In this document: in pieces, positions 47,753 to 55,573 of the stretch | How positions within the stretch are numbered: position 1 is the first letter of the stretch | How the letters are laid out: each line of letters starts with the position of its first letter | Origin: Brachyspira suanatina | Lineage (GTDB): Bacteria > Spirochaetota > Brachyspiria > Brachyspirales > Brachyspiraceae | Direction of reading: 5' to 3' | NCBI RefSeq assembly: GCF_001049755.1 | Contig: NZ_CVLB01000001.1 | Location: forward strand, 1,754,995 to 1,818,994 | DNA length: 64,000 nt | The notes under the pieces: generated by a model | Seen by the model: the letters and a program-made list of their open reading frames with translations, nothing else | What the model was told of the DNA's origin: nothing | The model's database searches: none | Translations under genes and position numbers: made by a program

Positions 47753-48691
47753 ATGTTTAGAAGAATATTTAATATTGATACAATAAATAGAATAACTTGG
47801 TTTATACCCTTTAAACAGTTAAGAAACGATGTAAGAGATTTGCTTATAACATTACTAGATACATACAGAAGAACTAATATTATAAAAAATAGAATAAATT
47901 TCCCGGAAAACAATAAACCTAAAGATTATATATCAATATTGGCTACAGTGAAAAATGAAGCTCAATATATAAAGGAATGGATTGAATATCATAGAATTAT
48001 AGGTGTAGAAAGATTCTATATATATGATAATGATAGCAATGATAATTTACAAGAAATATTGGAACCTTACATAAAAGATGGAATCGTTATATATAATTTT
48101 TTTGGAGGTATTGGAAAGCAGTTAGATATATATGAAGATGGAATAGATAGATATGGTAAAAATACATTTTGGATGGCTATAATTGATTTAGATGAATTCA
48201 TAGTTCCAGTAGAAAATTATGATTTGAAAGATTTTTTAAAATATTATGAAAAATATCCTGCTATCGCAGTAAATTGGATACAATTTGATGGAAACGATCA
48301 TATAGAAAAACCTAAAGGATTAGTAATAGAAAATTATAAAAGAGCATTTAAATTAAATCATCCATTAAACCAAATTACTAAATCTATAGTTCAGCCTAAA
48401 TATGTAATGGAATATTTAACCGCACATCATTTCCAATATTTTAATGGATTTGCTGTAAATGAAAATTTTGAATATTCAAAAGAAAGAGATATGCCTAATT
48501 CTGTAAAAAAAATAAGAATACATCATTATGCTACAAAATCTTTAGAAGAATATAAAGCAAAAATTAATAAAAAAGATAATGATGGTATTATAAAAAATGA
48601 TATGGGTATATATAAAGCAGAAGATTCATATATAGATAATACAATTGATAAATACATACCTGAATTAAAAAAAAGATTGAATATGAATTAA
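47753..48691 (+). CDS. GT92-like glycosyltransferase with N-terminal WxIP segment
   Basis: 312 residues. Residues 1-45 hold a short basic segment (INRITWFIPFKQLRNDVRDL, W16) shared with other proteins of this locus. The catalytic part is GT92/DUF23-like: SILATVKNEAQYIKEWIEYH, YIYDNDSNDNLQEIL, WMAIIDLDEFIVPVENY (DxD-type LDEF) and VNWIQFDGNDH. It is likely a sugar transferase acting on a surface glycan or LOS-like molecule. It converges on the next gene with a four-base stop overlap. The ribosome site is a GGAG eight bases upstream. Confidence 0.82.
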   Translation: MFRRIFNIDTINRITWFIPFKQLRNDVRDLLITLLDTYRRTNIIKNRINFPENNKPKDYISILATVKNEAQYIKEWIEYHRIIGVERFYIYDNDSNDNLQEILEPYIKDGIVIYNFFGGIGKQLDIYEDGIDRYGKNTFWMAIIDLDEFIVPVENYDLKDFLKYYEKYPAIAVNWIQFDGNDHIEKPKGLVIENYKRAFKLNHPLNQITKSIVQPKYVMEYLTAHHFQYFNGFAVNENFEYSKERDMPNSVKKIRIHHYATKSLEEYKAKINKKDNDGIIKNDMGIYKAEDSYIDNTIDKYIPELKKRLNMN

Positions 48692-49548
48692 TCTAAAACT
48701 TCAGGAGTATTGTTAATTTTAATATTAAAATTTGATACATTTATTATATCATCTTTACTATATATATGATATAAAGGCACATTTCCTATATAACTAGCCC
48801 ATATTGTAAATGTAGAAGGGGCTCCAATTATATAATCGCATAAACTTAATAAACTATGATCCTCATGCCATTGGCATTTTGAAACTACATAATCATGATT
48901 TGGTTTTAAAGTTACCTCTTCATTAGAAAAAATTATAAATAAGATTTTTTTATTTGGAAATAAATTATAAAACTGATCTATCTTATCATTATAAACTTCA
49001 TCTTCATAATAAAATCTGCCATTGTTCCAATATTTATAATCGCCTCTTCTTATATGAACACCAACTTTTAAATCATAATCCTCAAACTTATTTTTTATAT
49101 TATTGTAATTTTCTGAATTAAGATTAATAGGAGTATATTTTTGTGCGAAATAATCCCTATATTGATATACTAAATTTGTAACTCTAAAATCCCAACCCGA
49201 AACAAATATAGTTTTATTTTTATTATCAAGTATTTGACTATTGTATAATTCTATATTTTGCCTTAAATTAATATCCATATAATCATATATTAAATAATTT
49301 TTTATATGCATTTTTTTACAGAAATTAGATATACCTTCAATAATACCATATCTAGTATTGAGTGATGGTAAAAGTATAGGAGGAAGTTTTTTAAAACTAT
49401 ATTTATCTTTAATACCATAAAAATCTTCCATATCATAAAATTCTAAATTATGATATTCTATATTATTATGTTTACAGTAAGCCTCAAAATGAATATTCTG
49501 AAGCAGTCTATTACTTTTATCTCCGAATCTTTTATAAAGAAAAACCAT
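48688..49548 (-). CDS. GT11 (alpha-1,2-fucosyltransferase-like) protein, paralogue 1
   Basis: 286 residues with the GT11 motif KVGVHIRRGDYKYWNNGRF (HxRRGDY, GDP-sugar binding), an N-terminal ALN-like region (FGDKSNRLLQNIHFEAYCKH) and FSNEEVTLKPNHDYVVSK, then CDYIIGAPSTFTIWASYIG. It is closely related to the GT11 protein encoded at 52970-53821, with long identical stretches in the C-terminal half. GT11 enzymes move fucose from GDP-fucose; the sugar here is unverified. It converges on the GT92-like gene (four-base overlap) and is divergent from the GT8 gene. Confidence 0.82.
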   Translation of the reverse strand: MVFLYKRFGDKSNRLLQNIHFEAYCKHNNIEYHNLEFYDMEDFYGIKDKYSFKKLPPILLPSLNTRYGIIEGISNFCKKMHIKNYLIYDYMDINLRQNIELYNSQILDNKNKTIFVSGWDFRVTNLVYQYRDYFAQKYTPINLNSENYNNIKNKFEDYDLKVGVHIRRGDYKYWNNGRFYYEDEVYNDKIDQFYNLFPNKKILFIIFSNEEVTLKPNHDYVVSKCQWHEDHSLLSLCDYIIGAPSTFTIWASYIGNVPLYHIYSKDDIINVSNFNIKINNTPEVLD

Positions 49549-49662
49549 ATCAAAACCTATAAATATTCTAACTTTATTATAAAGTATAAATTTAAATTTG
49601 CAAATTATAAAATTGATGATAATATTATTAAAATACTATAAAGATATTTAGGAAAAAATAAA

Positions 49663-50682
49663 ATGATAGAAATGAATATATGCTTTGCATCCGACAATAA
49701 TTATGCTCCGTATATGGGGACAGCTATAGCATCGGTATTAAAAAATAGCTTAGAAGATGAAAAAATAACATTTCATTTAATAGATGGCGGAATAACAAAA
49801 GAAAATAAAGATAAAATACTATCATTAAAAAGCATAAAAGACTGTGAAATAAAATTCTACACACCTGATATAGAAAGATACAATGATTGGTTTGAAAAAA
49901 CTAAATACAAAATGTATTATTCCCCAGCAACATTTTATAGAATTTCAATACCTAGTTTAATAAAAAATGTAGATAAAATTTTATATTTAGATTGCGACAT
50001 AATAGTTACAAAAAGTTTAAGAGAATTATTTTTAATGGATCTTGAAAATTATTATGCTTTCGTTGTTTTACATAAAGCAATAATGGAGGATGAAGTAGAA
50101 TTTTATGGTGATTTATTTTGTGCAGGATTTTTAATGATAAATAATAAGTTATGGAAAGAAAACAATATAGAACAGAAATGTATAGAATATTACGAAAATA
50201 ATTATGAAAATTGTTTTAATGATCAAGATGTTTTAAATGAAATATTAAAAAACAAAGTTAAATATTTACCTGAGAAATGGCTTTTTTTTGCTGATAAAAG
50301 ATATCATTATGAAGATCCAAAATTGGAAGATGTTATTATTATTCACCATTTAGGATTAGTTAAACCTTGGGAAGAAAATTGTCATGGTAGTTTATTAATA
50401 GATGAATATTGGAAATATTATCAATATACACCTTGGTTTAGAGATGAGCCTATAACAGCTTTTCAAACTATTTTAAAACAGAAATTTTATGATTATGATG
50501 ATGTACGTTTAAAGGGAAACTGGATAAAACTATTTGGTATATACAGCAGCAATAAAGTACTTCAAATAGTAATATTTGGAATACAAATAAATATAAAAGT
50601 AGATTATGTAAAGAGAAGAGATATAGGAAGACTTCTGCCTTTCAAAAAATGGCGTGACAGATTCAGAGAAAAATTCAAGTAA
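49663..50682 (+). CDS. GT8 glycosyltransferase with C-terminal basic tail
   Basis: 339 residues of the LgtC/RfaJ-type GT8 family: NICFASDNNYAPYMGTAIAS, FHLIDGGITKENK, SPATFYRISIPSLI, ILYLDCDIIVTKSLREL (DxD as DCD), CAGFLMINNKLWKE, FNDQDVLNEIL, and HHLGLVKPWEENCHG. It would transfer galactose or glucose from a UDP-sugar. The last 20 residues (RLLPFKKWRDRFREKFK) are a basic amphipathic tail like the WxIP segments of its neighbours, with the Trp displaced. ATG follows AGGA at nine bases. The stop is three bases from the convergent methyltransferase's stop. Confidence 0.88.
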   Translation: MIEMNICFASDNNYAPYMGTAIASVLKNSLEDEKITFHLIDGGITKENKDKILSLKSIKDCEIKFYTPDIERYNDWFEKTKYKMYYSPATFYRISIPSLIKNVDKILYLDCDIIVTKSLRELFLMDLENYYAFVVLHKAIMEDEVEFYGDLFCAGFLMINNKLWKENNIEQKCIEYYENNYENCFNDQDVLNEILKNKVKYLPEKWLFFADKRYHYEDPKLEDVIIIHHLGLVKPWEENCHGSLLIDEYWKYYQYTPWFRDEPITAFQTILKQKFYDYDDVRLKGNWIKLFGIYSSNKVLQIVIFGIQINIKVDYVKRRDIGRLLPFKKWRDRFREKFK

Positions 50683-50685
50683 ATA

Positions 50686-51549
50686 TTATTTCCAAACTAT
50701 TATTTTATTCTCTGGATGAGTCAGTGGCACCTCATCATATAAACTAATATTTGTAGGAATAAAATTACTATACTCCTTTAATTTATATGGATTTAACGAA
50801 TGATTAGAAGTATTATTATATGTTATATATCCATTTTTAGAATATTTTATTGTATTATCAATATATAAATCTTGAATTTCTTTTTTTAATTCACTAAAAG
50901 CATAATTTGATATAAATAAATCATATTCTTTAGGTTCTAATTTATCTGCTGACACAAAATTTAATTGAGTTTTAATATCAGTAAAATTACTTAAATATTT
51001 TTTAGATAAAGATAATACAGGATCTAAATCAATAAACGTATAACTTTTAATATTTTTAAAATATGACATTATTATTCTAGCTTGTCCGCCATAACCAATA
51101 CCTACCTCACATATATTAAAATCAGATAAATCTCCAAAATGCAAAATTAAATCAGATAGAACTTTTATATATCTTAAAGTGGATGGAGTTATTAAACCTA
51201 TATCTTGATATTCTTTTTTTAAAGCACCGCCATATAAATCATTTCTTGTAAAATCTTTAAAATTTTCTTTATTAAAATAGTTTGTTTTATTAATAATATC
51301 TAAATAAATTTGAGCATGTTCATAGCTAGTATGTTCCAATACAGTAGTATATATAGGATTCTGTCTAAAAGTATTAAATACATCATCATCATTTGAAGCC
51401 AATTCACAGAAAGAAGTATAATCTAATGTATCAGATATACTAGTACCAGATGATGTTTCTGAATAATATCTTATCTTATTTTTTATTTTATCTCTTAATT
51501 TCTTATTTGGTATAAACCAAACTAATTTATTTATAAAATCTTTATTCAT
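50686..51549 (-). CDS. Putative sugar O-methyltransferase with N-terminal WxIP segment
   Basis: About 287 residues. It starts MNKDFINKLVWFIPNKKLRD (W11), the same segment found in neighbouring glycosyltransferases. A class I methyltransferase follows: FNICEVGIGYGGQARIIMSYF (SAM loop), SYTFIDLDPVLSLSKKYL, DLFISNYAFSEL. This resembles the NanM/putative sugar O-methyltransferase family of glycan clusters, so it probably caps a sugar with a methyl group. The start at 51549 has GGA seven bases upstream; the frame extends to 51588 with no better site. Convergent to the GT8 gene. Confidence 0.78.
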   Translation of the reverse strand: MNKDFINKLVWFIPNKKLRDKIKNKIRYYSETSSGTSISDTLDYTSFCELASNDDDVFNTFRQNPIYTTVLEHTSYEHAQIYLDIINKTNYFNKENFKDFTRNDLYGGALKKEYQDIGLITPSTLRYIKVLSDLILHFGDLSDFNICEVGIGYGGQARIIMSYFKNIKSYTFIDLDPVLSLSKKYLSNFTDIKTQLNFVSADKLEPKEYDLFISNYAFSELKKEIQDLYIDNTIKYSKNGYITYNNTSNHSLNPYKLKEYSNFIPTNISLYDEVPLTHPENKIIVWK

Positions 51550-51732
51550 AAAAAAATCCAAATGGTAAATTATAACTTTGAATAGCATAAAGTATAAAGT
51601 ATAAATATATAAAAGTCAAATTATATCATAAAACATTGACAAATATATATATAAATTTATAATAATATAGTTAAAAAAATAAAACTATTTCACATATATT
51701 TTTGTATATAAACATATCATTGGGATAAAATT

Positions 51733-51972
51733 ATGCACTTCAAATTAATAAATGAACTAGTTTGGTATGTACCTATAAAAAAGTTAAGAAATACCGCTAT
51801 AGAACTTTTAATACTTCATTTTAAAAAATTTTATCCTATTAAAAATAATCAATTTAAATCTATATCTTTATATAACTACAAAAATATATTTAATTATAAT
51901 AAATACAATAATTATAAGCCATTTAATAATATAATTAATCATTATAAAAATAAATTATTATTAGATAATTAA
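51733..51972 (+). CDS. Small protein consisting mainly of the WxIP segment
   Basis: 79 residues: MHFKLINELVWYVPIKKLRN (W11, P14, R19) followed by a basic helix and an Asn/Tyr/Lys-rich low-complexity tail (IFNYNKYNNYKPFNNIINHY). The N-terminus is strongly like that of the GT92-like and methyltransferase proteins nearby, but no catalytic domain follows. It may be the 5' remnant of a degraded glycosyltransferase gene or a genuine small anchoring protein. Nine bases downstream, with an AAGGA, starts a full GT gene. Its own ribosome site is weak (TGGGA). Confidence 0.5.
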   Translation: MHFKLINELVWYVPIKKLRNTAIELLILHFKKFYPIKNNQFKSISLYNYKNIFNYNKYNNYKPFNNIINHYKNKLLLDN

Positions 51973-51981
51973 GGAATTTTT

Positions 51982-52977
51982 ATGAATAAAGCTGTTTTAC
52001 TTATAGTATTCAATAGATTTGATACTGCCAAAAAAGTATTTGAAGCAATAAGAGAAGTAAAGCCTCCTCGTTTATATGTTGCTGCTGACGGTCCAAGAAA
52101 AAATAAAAGAGGAGAATATAAAAAATGCATGAAAGTGAGAGAAATCATAAAATATGTTGATTGGGAATGCGAAGTAAAAACTTTATTTAGGGATGAAAAT
52201 TTAGGATGCGGAAAAGCTGTATCTGGTGCTATAAATTGGTTTTTTGAAAATGAAGAAGATGGTATAATACTTGAAGATGACTGTTTGCCTAATAAATCTT
52301 TCTTTTATTATTGTGAAGAACTATTAAATTATTATAAAGATAATGAAAAAATAATGCATATAGGATCAAATCATATAGGAGAGCCTTATTCTGAATATAC
52401 TTACAATTTTACTTCTATAATGAGATGTTGGGGATGGGCTTCTTGGAGAAGAGCTTGGAAACATTTTGATTTTACATTAAAAAGATATGATTATAAAGAT
52501 ATAGAAAGAAAAATTGAAATAATATACAAAGATAAAAACATGCAGCATTATTGGAAATCTATCACTTTATGCATGATGAATTTAGGTATAGATACTTGGG
52601 ATTATCAATGGGTTATATCCATAATAGCTAATGAAGGTCTTTGCATAGATCCTAATATTAATCTTGTAAGTAATATAGGATTTACAAAAGAAGGAACTCA
52701 TACCTTTGATTCTGACTGTAATGTCGCTAATTTACCTACATACAATATAGAAAAAATAATACATCCTCCAAAAATAGAAAGAAATATGGAAATAGATGAA
52801 AAAATACTTCATAAATGGTTTGGGGTCAAATATTTAGAAGAATTAATACCTGAGGTTGAAAGACTAAACTACATAATAACTAAAATAATAGATAAAATAG
52901 CTTGGTATATACCTATTAGAAGCATTAGAAACAATTGGAGAGATAAGTTTAAAAAGAAAATGATGAATATTAAATAA
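51982..52977 (+). CDS. GT2-like nucleotide-sugar transferase with C-terminal WxIP segment
   Basis: 331 residues. The fold resembles GNT-I/HlpA-like sugar transferases: KAVLLIVFNRFDTAKKVFEA, RLYVAADGPRKNKRGEY, LFRDENLGCGKAVSGAINWF, GIILEDDCLPNKSFF (metal-binding EDD), and MRCWGWASWRRAWKHFDF. The last 30 residues (IIDKIAWYIPIRSIRNNW…, W308) repeat the segment seen at the N-termini of neighbours. AAGGA lies seven bases before the ATG. It overlaps the convergent GT11 paralogue by eight bases. Confidence 0.83.
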   Translation: MNKAVLLIVFNRFDTAKKVFEAIREVKPPRLYVAADGPRKNKRGEYKKCMKVREIIKYVDWECEVKTLFRDENLGCGKAVSGAINWFFENEEDGIILEDDCLPNKSFFYYCEELLNYYKDNEKIMHIGSNHIGEPYSEYTYNFTSIMRCWGWASWRRAWKHFDFTLKRYDYKDIERKIEIIYKDKNMQHYWKSITLCMMNLGIDTWDYQWVISIIANEGLCIDPNINLVSNIGFTKEGTHTFDSDCNVANLPTYNIEKIIHPPKIERNMEIDEKILHKWFGVKYLEELIPEVERLNYIITKIIDKIAWYIPIRSIRNNWRDKFKKKMMNIK

Positions 52978-53821
52978 TATTATATATACCGTTTAATATA
53001 AAATCTGATAATTCTATATTTTTATGTTTATCTTTAATATGGTACATTGGAACATTACCTATAAAGCTAGCCCATGATGTAAAAGTCGAAGGCGGTCCTA
53101 TCAAATAATCACATATACTCATTAAACTATGATCTTCATACCATTTGCATTTTGAAATAACATAATCATAATTTGGTTTTAAAGTAATTTCTTCATTTGA
53201 AAATAGAATAAACAATATTCTTTTATTTTTATGTAAATTTACAAACTGCTCTATTATATCATTATATACATTATCCTCATAATAATATTGTCCGCCATTC
53301 CACTCTTTATAATCACCTTTTCTTATATGAATACCTACTTTTATATCATAATTTACAAACATATTTTTTATACTATTATATTCTTCAGAATTAAGATTAA
53401 TAGGGGTATACTTCTTTACAAAATAATCTCTATACATATTAATATAATTATTGCATCTAAAATACCAGCTTTTTACTAAAATAATAGATTTTTTATGTTT
53501 TAATATCTGCTTCTCATAAAGTTCATAATTATTTTCATGCCATTTTTGATCATATACATATAACAATATTAAACTAAATTTTACTTTATTAATTTCCCAT
53601 ATTACATTTTCTGTTATTTTTCTTTTTTTAGTTAACACATATGAAAGCAGTTTATTCATATTCGTATAATTTACTTCTGTTTTAATACCATAAATATCTT
53701 CCATATCATAAAAATCAAGATTATAAAATGGTATATTATAATGTTTACAGTATGCTTCAAAATGCATATTCTGGATCAATCTATTACTATGATTGCCGTA
53801 TCTCTCATACAAAACTACCAC
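52970..53821 (-). CDS. GT11 (alpha-1,2-fucosyltransferase-like) protein, paralogue 2
   Basis: 283 residues, a paralogue of the 48688-49548 gene: YGNHSNRLIQNMHFEAYCKH, then KVGIHIRKGDYKEWNGGQYY (HxRKGDY, one Arg replaced by Lys), FSNEEITLKPNYDYVISKC and CDYLIGPPSTFTSWASFIG. The middle part differs more. The changed R/K in the GDP-sugar motif could alter activity. AGGAG lies before the ATG. The candidate promoter (53895-53921) abuts a 15-copy heptamer array, so expression may vary. Convergent to the GT2-like gene with an eight-base overlap. Confidence 0.82.
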   Translation of the reverse strand: MVVLYERYGNHSNRLIQNMHFEAYCKHYNIPFYNLDFYDMEDIYGIKTEVNYTNMNKLLSYVLTKKRKITENVIWEINKVKFSLILLYVYDQKWHENNYELYEKQILKHKKSIILVKSWYFRCNNYINMYRDYFVKKYTPINLNSEEYNSIKNMFVNYDIKVGIHIRKGDYKEWNGGQYYYEDNVYNDIIEQFVNLHKNKRILFILFSNEEITLKPNYDYVISKCKWYEDHSLMSICDYLIGPPSTFTSWASFIGNVPMYHIKDKHKNIELSDFILNGIYNII

Positions 53822-53894
53822 ATAAGTCTCCTAAATGTAGTTTTGTATAAAAGATGCAACATATATACTCTTATATTTTTTTTAAATATAAGGT

Positions 53895-53921
53895 ATAATA
53901 GAAATATGTATAATATTACAA
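53895..53921 (-). promoter_or_regulatory. Candidate promoter of GT11 paralogue 2, next to the heptamer array
   Basis: On the minus strand: TTGTAA (53916-53921), 15-bp spacer, TATTAT (53895-53900). The -35 box is three bases from the start of the repeat array. The spacer is a little short, so this is a candidate only. Confidence 0.4.
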
Positions 53922-53924
53922 TAC

Positions 53925-54029
53925 TAGACTGTAGACTGTAGACTGTAGACTGTAGACTGTAGACTGTAGACTGTAGACTGTAGACTGTAGACTGTAGACT
54001 GTAGACTGTAGACTGTAGACTGTAGACTG
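53925..54029. repeat. 15 perfect copies of the heptamer TAGACTG
   Basis: 105 bp of uninterrupted heptanucleotide repeat with no variant unit, in the 567-bp gap (53822-54388) between two divergent glycan genes. The rest of that gap is AT-rich DNA without a gene. Perfect purity points to recent slippage. The position just upstream of the candidate promoter of GT11 paralogue 2 suggests an expression-tuning contingency locus. Confidence 0.97.
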
Positions 54030-54388
54030 TCTTTTACACTATAAAAAGATAAATATACTATCATTAATTTTATTTTATAGTATAATAAAAAAATGTCAAT
54101 AAAGAATTTTTTAATGAATAAAATGATTTTATATAATTGATATATATTTATTTAATATACTAAATTTATTTTTTGATAATTAAAAATGCAATCAGCAATA
54201 AATTTAAAAAATCATATTATCACACACATTAACTTTAATATATTATTTAATTGCATTTTTTGAGAATAATATTCTAAATATTGTTTAAAATACAAATTAT
54301 CAAAAATTTGGTATACAATTACAAATAAAATGTTTATTATAATTCTTAATAATATAATATCATTATATTTTTATAAATGGAGTTTATA

Positions 54389-55573
54389 ATGGAGAATGTA
54401 TGTCAATGCGAAGAATGTAAAAGCGGTAAATATAACCCTTTAGACTATGTTGTAAAAAATGAAGACTTAAAAATATTAGATGAAAAAAGACCTTTAGGAA
54501 TATCCGGACATTTAAGAGTAAAAAATGAAGCAATGTCGCTTGCTCAATCTATAGATTCCTGTATTGATGCTTTAGATGAACTTATAGTAACATACAATAC
54601 ATCAGAAGATAATACAGAAGAAATTTTAAAAGAATATCAAAAAAAATATCCAGATAAAATAAAGCTTTACCATTATAAACCAGATATTATTAATTATACT
54701 TCTACTGAAAAAGAACTAGAAGAATTTAAAGCAAAAAAAATGTTTTATAATACAGAAAGTATACATAGTTTAGCAAATTACTACAATTTTGGTTGTATAA
54801 AAATTAAATATAGATATTATCTCAAAATAGATGCTGATCAAATTTATTTTAAAGATAAATTATTAGAAGTAAGAAAAGCTTTGCTCTATGATTTAAATAA
54901 TGTAAATAAACTAAAAGAATATAAAAAAATTATAAAATTTGCTAAGTATAATATATTTATGGAAAAAATTGCTTGGCTAATACCTAATATGAAATTTAGA
55001 TATGATTTTAAATTAAAATACACTTATAAATTATATAAAAAAATAATTGAAAATCTTGGATTATTTAATTTAATTATATTTTATAGATTAGCAAATAAAG
55101 ATAATTGTTGTTATACAATTGCTGGAATACAAACAGTAATGTATAATAATAAAACATATGTACCTAAAAATGTTAATCATTTAAAACTTACAACTTTCAA
55201 CAGCTGCGGAAATGATCATTCAATATGGATACCATATAGTAAGAATAAGTTTATAACATCAAATTCACCAATGGAAATAATAGAAAATAATAAAGAAGGT
55301 AAAGAATGTCCTTTAGGATTTTTTTGGCTTCATTTAGCACCAATAAAAAGAAAAATTAATGTTGATAAAAATGATTTGATTACAAATATATTAGATATAA
55401 AAAATATAAATTTAGAAGATTTTTCAAATTCCAAATTAAAATTTTCAGAAGATTTATCAATTTATTGGGCGAAAATATTTTTTAATTATGATAAAAAATA
55501 CCTAACAAAAGAATTCTTTGACAAATATTTTAATAATATATTGGAATACATTATAAAACATTATAAACAATAA
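54389..55573 (+). CDS. Glycosyltransferase with internal WxIP segment
   Basis: 394 residues. The N-terminus is Cys-rich (MENVCQCEECKSGKYN); the glycosyltransferase part has GISGHLRVKNEAMSLAQSID, LIVTYNTSEDNTEEIL and YYLKIDADQIYFKDKLL (DxD at about 147-151). Then comes a basic helical stretch with MEKIAWLIPNMKFRYDF (W196), the neighbours' segment inserted mid-protein, and a C-terminal region with ITSNSPMEIIENNKEGKECPLGFFWLHLAP. Start: ATG at 54389 with GGAG seven bases before; the ATG at 54377 lies before that site. It converges on the aldo/keto reductase. Confidence 0.78.
   Translation: MENVCQCEECKSGKYNPLDYVVKNEDLKILDEKRPLGISGHLRVKNEAMSLAQSIDSCIDALDELIVTYNTSEDNTEEILKEYQKKYPDKIKLYHYKPDIINYTSTEKELEEFKAKKMFYNTESIHSLANYYNFGCIKIKYRYYLKIDADQIYFKDKLLEVRKALLYDLNNVNKLKEYKKIIKFAKYNIFMEKIAWLIPNMKFRYDFKLKYTYKLYKKIIENLGLFNLIIFYRLANKDNCCYTIAGIQTVMYNNKTYVPKNVNHLKLTTFNSCGNDHSIWIPYSKNKFITSNSPMEIIENNKEGKECPLGFFWLHLAPIKRKINVDKNDLITNILDIKNINLEDFSNSKLKFSEDLSIYWAKIFFNYDKKYLTKEFFDKYFNNILEYIIKHYKQ

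Follow-up and report, generated by a model that had tools for sequence, protein, structure and literature searches.

A portable basic segment on soluble glycan enzymes of the Brachyspiraceae

A 64,000-nucleotide stretch of the Brachyspira suanatina genome (contig NZ_CVLB01000001.1, positions 1,754,995 to 1,818,994; the window) contains a glycan locus in which proteins of several families share a segment of ~25-30 residues, called here the tag. Its consensus is [ND]-K-[IL]-[VA]-W-[WFY]-I-P-[IF]-[KR]-K-[LW]-R-[DN]-x-[FI]-R, and the copies in the window centre on W-[FYL]-[IV]-P. The tag is portable, free in its position within the host protein, conserved at the protein level, charged at about +4 and restricted to one lineage in the searched genomes, and its hosts are nearly without transmembrane-like segments. 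We consider it rather probable that the tag is a lineage-specific, portable device that docks soluble glycan enzymes at the membrane or at a lipid-linked acceptor, docking being the part of this reading that we infer. The original prediction, made from the letters of the window, had proposed a transferable tag for membrane docking or complex assembly; transferability is strongly supported, and none of the results named beforehand as speaking against it was obtained.

Copy number and lineage distribution

With the segment of the window's methyltransferase as the sole query, 19 places were recovered in the same genome at E≤10, the query itself included; 17 of the 18 other places are tags (E 7.9e-4 to 1.02), while one (L014) was not confirmed. 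A profile built from these 18 own-genome segments (A1) recovered all of them together with the tail of a GT8 protein, giving 19 copies. Seven of these reside on a plasmid-like contig of 30.6 kb (C4), which also carries ParA-like, integrase-like and rfb-type genes and by eye resembles pBHWA1 in content. On pBHWA1 itself, the plasmid of B. hyodysenteriae WA1 (L208), four genes are tagged, encoding a glycosyltransferase-domain protein, an ATP-grasp (TupA-like) protein, a bifunctional fucosyltransferase and an internally tagged glycosyltransferase. PMC4267127 associates a four-gene block with virulence; by annotation order, none of the four tagged genes lies in that block.

A scan of every open reading frame (ORF) of at least 30 residues in the tag loci of 11 further Brachyspiraceae genomes and in the own-genome stretches yielded 152 non-redundant tags scoring above 15 bits (12 genomes), with reversed ORFs reaching at most 10.1 bits. 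Tags below 15 bits are outside the 152, and since homologues called untagged bear weak tags (10.8 to 25.8 bits with a refined profile), the untagged counts given below are slightly too high.

Across 247 spirochaete genomes, profile A1 matched all 28 other Brachyspiraceae listed (best E ≤3.3e-8 in each), and its 11 matches outside the family had E values of 0.005 to 0.09. The refined profile A5, made from 89 tags taken from 12 genomes, matched 29 of 29 Brachyspiraceae and at least three of 267 other spirochaetes at E≤0.01 (296 genomes). A5 is independent for 17 of the 29 Brachyspiraceae, and A1 for 28; in both searches the best 32 or 27 scored candidates were considered in many genomes, so that genome counts are to be read as 'at least'. 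The three matches outside the family (G014, G164, G180) lie in frames unlike glycan enzymes and were judged by eye to be chance. The search for further examples, on which the original prediction depended, thus returned 152 tags and every one of the 29 Brachyspiraceae.

Beyond the spirochaetes, a narrow DNA pattern, with CGN codons deliberately placed at the first Arg, was run against 84,980 species and returned six stretches: four are titled Brachyspira, and a single uncultured Spirochaetia assembly contributes the other two. Five of these fall within C-terminal tags of longer proteins, the remaining one within a 33-residue frame. Two tag queries compared by tblastn with 72,556 plasmids each returned nine records, all Brachyspira, and a tblastn comparison with phages gave two matches only, in ribonucleotide reductase genes (E 7-8). 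By these searches the tag looks restricted to the Brachyspiraceae and not general to spirochaetes, and a looser form may occur outside the set covered, which comprised spirochaete genomes, plasmids and phages along with a single narrow DNA pattern.

Position and portability

By place, the 152 tags comprise 67 at the C-terminus, 61 at the N-terminus (58 and 3 less certain), 8 internal copies (at least one of these being a C-terminal tag with a long repeat tail behind it) and 16 in short ORFs. When the tag is removed or masked, the hosts form 51 blastp clusters, of which 27 are singletons (including 5 short ORFs); several of the 51 share a superfamily or fold, as do the methyltransferases. The segment had been predicted to travel between folds and between ends of proteins, and these distributions bear this out. 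Within one cluster of GT11 fucosyltransferases the tag is N-terminal in 7 members and C-terminal in 2, the latter having an extra region. Two TupA homologues (u97 and u98, on a plasmid of G072) have the rest of the protein in common with tagged relatives and lack the tag as a clean gap. A common ancestral fold is disfavoured by the many host families and by these clean-gap homologues. Untagged homologues and two structural models (below) place the segment outside the catalytic fold or as an insertion.

The possibility that the tags are convergent, being independent amphipathic tails or pieces of each catalytic fold, draws on the GT8 tail and some GT2 tails, which are just half-like. We regard it as very improbable: a single profile with near-invariant Trp, Pro and Arg separates the 152 tags (>15 bits) from reversed sequence (≤10.1), and the TupA homologues miss the tag as a clean gap.

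Some tags are split from their enzymes by frame changes, forming ORFs of 38, 43 and 96 residues beside intact or start-less enzymes (L160 compared with L140; L024; L174). In L024 a 43-residue tag ORF immediately precedes a radical SAM homologue missing ~50 N-terminal residues, and in L160 a 38-residue tag ORF is found at the end of an enzyme that shares 94.7% identity with a tagged one; some tags have therefore been lost or switched off. We set aside the idea that stand-alone tag proteins form a functional class, as several of the 16 short ORFs resemble remnants or are truncated at contig ends. At L138:817-897, just past an intact C-terminal tag, there is a further copy that is degraded and interrupted by two stops.

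Conservation of the peptide

Numbered from Trp (position 0), Arg at +8 is present in 153 of 153 hits in the profile alignment, Pro in 99% and Trp in 97%; this alignment was made without an Arg requirement, is not de-duplicated, differs slightly from the set of 152 and consists of profile hits, which favour conserved residues. At positions where two tags have the same residue, codons differ at a frequency of 0.360, compared with 0.382 expected from host codon usage (148 of the 152 tags; four failed the motif expression, which required Arg at +8). Codons have thus diverged nearly as far as codon usage predicts, which indicates that the peptide is what is conserved. A DNA model searched with nhmmer gave 160 matches, 148 of them on counted protein-level tags and on the same strand; the remaining 12 are mostly weak tags or one degraded copy.

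These data bear on whether the segment could be a mobile or recombination element at the DNA level that is translated by chance. There are many copies per genome, with seven of 19 on a plasmid-like contig, and pentanucleotide repeats often lie near tags, as such an element might show; yet synonymous positions are nearly saturated and 148 of the 160 DNA-level matches coincide with counted in-frame tags, so we give this explanation almost no weight.

Host families and untagged neighbours

The 136 tagged hosts (short ORFs set aside) are mainly glycan-type transferases and modifying enzymes, in line with the original prediction. Among the 61 N-tagged hosts, Pfam families include FkbM methyltransferase (13), GT10 (9), radical SAM (9), GT11 (5), GT29 (2), GT92 (1) and other methyltransferases; the 75 C-terminally or internally tagged hosts include GT8 (19), GT2 (10), radical SAM (7), TupA (5), pyruvyltransferase (5), FrhB-like (4), RgpF (2) and several methyltransferases. 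Ten hosts scanned singly include GT61, a short-chain dehydrogenase, one protein without a match and one with a sub-threshold UDP-GlcNAc 2-epimerase match (E 0.0017).

Untagged genes within multi-tag regions (122 of the 270 untagged neighbours) were tallied in the same way. They include 15 Epimerase, 3 NTP_transferase, 3 dTDP_sugar_isom and 6 GalT hits; these families, and with them the nucleotide-sugar families common among untagged neighbours, are absent from those listed for the tagged hosts. These tallies list the 25 commonest of 28 families for N-tagged hosts, of 35 for C-terminal and internal hosts and of 133 for untagged neighbours, unlisted families having at most one, two and three members, respectively. 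Assuming that up to 3 tagged hosts are of those four kinds, Fisher p is 3e-7, a value that is indicative only because related genomes are not independent. Transmembrane-like segments, predicted with a hydropathy window, occur in 3 of 136 tagged hosts compared with 57 of 270 untagged neighbours. From the host families and the rarity of such segments, the tag is mainly a feature of soluble enzymes of transfer and modification.

Predicted structure of the tag

Hydrophobic residues recur at positions -5, -2, -1, +2, +4, +7, +11 and +15 and basic residues at +5, +6, +8 and +12, a pattern that suggests two helices broken at W-x-I-P. The mean net charge is +4.2, compared with +0.25 in random 25-mers of the hosts, and the 15-mer starting at Pro has a hydrophobic moment of 0.46 compared with 0.27 in random host 15-mers.

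AlphaFold models were obtained for two window proteins described below. In the C-terminally tagged GT2-like protein (9 sequences; mean predicted confidence, pLDDT, 81.5; tag blocks 61-72), a helix at 291-307 and a second at 313-327 are separated by a break at 308-312. In the internally tagged CgtA-like protein (7 sequences; mean pLDDT 64.6; tag blocks 86-93), the helices span 182-199 and 205-226 with a break at 200-204. Compared with solved structures, and among the matches listed (folds beyond those remain possible), the GT2-like model aligns over residues 1-285 with the GT-A fold of GnT I (Z 19.1, root-mean-square deviation (rmsd) 2.9 over 215), so that its tag lies outside this fold. The CgtA-like model aligns over residues 38-322 with SpsA (Z 11.1, rmsd 3.2 over 181), consistent with a tag inserted as a stretch within a GT-A fold. 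The tag is thus predicted to form a helix ending in ..I[ND]K[IL][VA], a W-[WFY]-I-P turn and a short basic amphipathic helix, [IF][KR]K[LW]R[DN]x[FI]R, containing the invariant Arg. Where an amphipathic helix had been anticipated, the two models predict a helix-turn-helix and the charge is basic, with amphipathicity just modest when compared with shuffles of the same tags.

Proposed membrane docking and its alternatives

We infer the function of the tag, whether membrane docking or complex assembly, from its charge, the predicted helix-turn-helix, the near-absence of transmembrane segments from its hosts and its replacement by generic basic tails. The last point comes from six untagged homologues of the GT2-like protein in the window: at the place of the tag, five end in a basic tail, for example NITREIKRIIRQIKGLFTRK, and the sixth is truncated. 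The tag is fused, partly via coiled-coil-like stalks or an LFGI..GIKI module (below), to soluble enzymes that in the docking model add or modify sugars on a membrane-borne surface glycan, and it would dock them to the inner membrane on its cytoplasmic side, where this glycan would grow on lipid. The aromatic turn would dip into the membrane interface while the basic helix would rest on anionic headgroups, and the invariant Arg and a second Arg may touch phosphate, either of a lipid headgroup or of a lipid-linked acceptor, as do Arg and Lys of the PglH ruler helix. Enzymes of many sources would in this manner be concentrated at one acceptor. These roles of single residues, and the binding of membrane or acceptor, are predictions of the model; the glycan concerned is most likely lipo-oligosaccharide, and the invariance of the Arg points to contact with one specific phosphate or with a protein partner.

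Several observations weigh against membrane docking. The near-absolute conservation of Trp, Pro and Arg exceeds the needs of generic membrane binding and fits a specific protein partner equally well. The amphipathicity of the second helix is modest relative to its own shuffles (mean z ~1; 15-23% of tags with p<0.05), and the entire 25-mer taken as a single helix is not amphipathic by the same comparison (z -0.7). AlphaFold readily draws helices from as few as 9 and 7 sequences, and the pLDDT of the GT2-like tag blocks is only 61-72. Some hosts are not transferases (the short-chain dehydrogenase, the UDP-GlcNAc 2-epimerase-like protein at E 0.0017 and the four FrhB-like proteins). Untagged transferases and modifying enzymes are also common in the loci, with 8 GT2, 4 GT8, 7 RgpF and 4 radical SAM hits among the 122 untagged neighbours, and in the window locus itself two GT11-like genes (48691-49548 and 52973-53821, minus strand) are without a tag. 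Other GT11-family proteins of the genus do carry it.

A protein scaffold is a strong rival to lipid docking. According to this explanation the tag is a recognition peptide whose W-x-I-P-x-K-x-x-R is bound by a Brachyspiraceae scaffold or membrane adaptor that assembles the enzymes into one complex, in the way that Golgi enzymes are collected through their tails by adaptors such as GOLPH3. Three features agree with it: Trp, Pro and Arg are nearly invariant (Arg at +8 in 153 of 153) while adjacent basic and hydrophobic sites vary, the position is free, and the lineage restriction is of the sort that a tag-receptor pair would give. The generic basic tails that replace the tag in untagged homologues of one family favour the membrane instead, and on balance we think the protein partner somewhat unlikely. 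Self-association, with tagged enzymes forming helical bundles or condensates, possibly together with preceding coiled-coil-like stalks, could account for the helix-turn-helix prediction and for the heptad-like or low-complexity stalks that by eye flank several tags. Neither a high net charge nor an asymmetric basic helix suits self-packing well, and many hosts show no such stalk by eye, making this explanation improbable. A broader proposal, which we hold as a tentative possibility, is that the tag is a lineage-private address code: one receptor, be it a scaffold or the phosphate of the lipid-linked glycan, would read helix-W-x-I-P-helix and enrol any soluble sugar-modifying enzyme in a membrane-bound assembly line. 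If so, incoming enzymes would join the surface-glycan pathway once they acquire the tag, be it at one of their ends or within a loop.

Copies in the window locus

Six proteins of the locus had been reported to share the segment. Five have full copies by translation, whereas the GT8 protein has a weak match to the second half only; some of the host identities (GT2-like, CgtA-like and methyltransferase-like) are recognized only below Pfam cut-offs. The GT92 protein (47753-48691, plus strand) has an N-terminal tag with W16 at 47768..47857 (plus strand), scoring E 1.1e-13 with profile A1, in which the segment is itself included, and E 0.0022 with the methyltransferase segment alone as the query; its GT92 Pfam domain (residues 66-276) is apart from the tag. 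The GT8 protein (49663-50682) has its Pfam domain at residues 5-239 of 339 and ends in a partial tag at 50638..50679 (plus strand; E 6.4e-4, 21.9 bits), a tail, LLPFKKWRDRFREKFK, that matches profile positions 14-29 with a weak score and is not among the segments in the profile. The methyltransferase (50686-51588, minus strand) is tagged at its N-terminus (51463..51549, minus strand; E 2.4e-13). Its Trp is residue 24 of the ORF and becomes W11, as had been stated, if counted from an internal ATG.

A 79-residue ORF (51733-51972) opens with a tag (W11) at 51733..51825 (plus strand; E 4.1e-13). The segment, said to make up most of this protein, accounts for ~30 of its 79 residues. Only weak matches to the whole protein (E 1.8e-5 or worse) occur, in 8 of 25 other congeners and mostly as parts of longer frames, for example over residues 2-74 with 34% identity inside a 340-residue frame; three matches are in frames of 32, 56 or 89 residues. 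The ORF is probably a remnant of an N-tagged gene.

The GT2-like protein (51982-52977, plus strand) carries a C-terminal tag with W308 at 52879..52965 (plus strand), at E 9.3e-12 with the profile and only E 1.02 with the methyltransferase segment alone. The CgtA-like GT2 protein (54377-55573, plus strand) carries an internal one at 54944..55036 (plus strand; E 6.6e-12), after a DxD stretch (KIDADQ); of its six homologues, four carry a full copy there and two a weak one. Here the Trp is residue 200, or 196 when counted from a second ATG; W16, W308 and W11 of the 79-residue protein agree with the earlier positions as they stand.

Associated module and repeats

A second module, approximately NW-x-x-LFGI-x-x-N-x-x-x-L-x-I-x-x-x-GIKITIK, was found in 22 ORFs of several clusters, with no matches in reversed sequence. 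In the window a shared-module scan places it directly before the GT8 tail, at 50518..50601 (plus strand). Its hosts include GT8, TupA-like and other proteins and one pyruvyltransferase (window; L020, L119, L124, L128, L151, L153, L185 and more), and 19 of the 22 ORFs are also tagged, mostly with the tag ~10 residues further on.

Tandem pentanucleotide repeats (≥4 copies, many of GACCA type) number 65 in the fetched loci, of which 39 are within 250 bases of a tag (e.g., L020:8488-8533, L020:12239-12279, L118, L119, L120, L121, L139). Those near tags encode DQTRPDQTRP-like tails after C-terminal tags or precede N-tagged genes. The repeats might act as slippage switches; no open-licence PMC paper combining Brachyspira, simple sequence repeat and phase variation was found. 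Tags at gene ends would be near intergenic repeats in any case, and we did not count the repeats as belonging to the tag, since untagged TupA genes are followed by them too.

Relation to known systems

The 18 segments scanned against curated families gave no match, best single members reaching E 0.22 in Pfam-A and 0.13 in NCBIfam. Among the sequences of solved structures (PDB), the best match was CAP18 (E 0.13, not significant), and the titles and abstract openings listed in searches of open-licence PMC papers contained no description of the motif.

Three known systems resemble the tag in part. The PglH ruler helix (PMC5792488) and the docking face of LpxB, PimA and MurG (PMC5785501) are basic amphipathic helices with a hydrophobic insertion by the catalytic site. 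Through its Arg and Lys, the ruler helix can bind the pyrophosphate of a lipid-linked glycan, and it also fixes the enzyme to the membrane (PMC5792488), offering a model for a shared acceptor contact of the tag. These helices each belong to one fold, and docking-face residues of LpxB, PimA and MurG are poorly conserved (PMC5785501), whereas the tag is one sequence found on many families and at either end. Held against the helices of peripheral glycosyltransferases, the tag is basic and its predicted helix lies outside or inserted in the core; its amphipathicity is modest compared with its own shuffles.

Encapsulation peptides of microcompartments (PMC12339742) are short, helical, linker-fused to several enzymes and able to recruit them to one assembly. 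They are terminal, typically 18 residues long and amphipathic with a hydrophobic face (PMC12339742); in contrast, the tag is a Pro-broken pair of basic helices that also occurs internally and is carried by glycan enzymes. Microcompartment shell families were absent from the 25 commonest of the 133 families in untagged neighbours, no genome-wide search for shell genes having been made. The client tails of GOLPH3 (PMC8421267) are positive tails on diverse glycosylation enzymes that are read by one adaptor. GOLPH3 clients are eukaryotic and membrane-spanning and their binding tails have no obvious common motif (PMC8421267), while the Brachyspiraceae motif is sharp and a hydropathy window detects no transmembrane-like segment in 133 of 136 tagged hosts; the analogy is one of working alone. 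Portable enzyme tags are thus known in kind, as with the microcompartment peptides, and the Brachyspiraceae tag is a variant, unless a dedicated receptor emerges.

Significance

How a bacterium might bring dozens of different glycan enzymes together at one place is usually hard to see, because the surfaces by which enzymes dock are not conserved from one to the next; the tag makes this question accessible through sequence. It is also a ready peptide with which to probe the membrane recruitment of soluble enzymes. For Brachyspira, the tag marks enzymes whose probable target is the membrane-borne surface glycan, among them the products of radical SAM and poorly annotated genes, some located on plasmids resembling pBHWA1.

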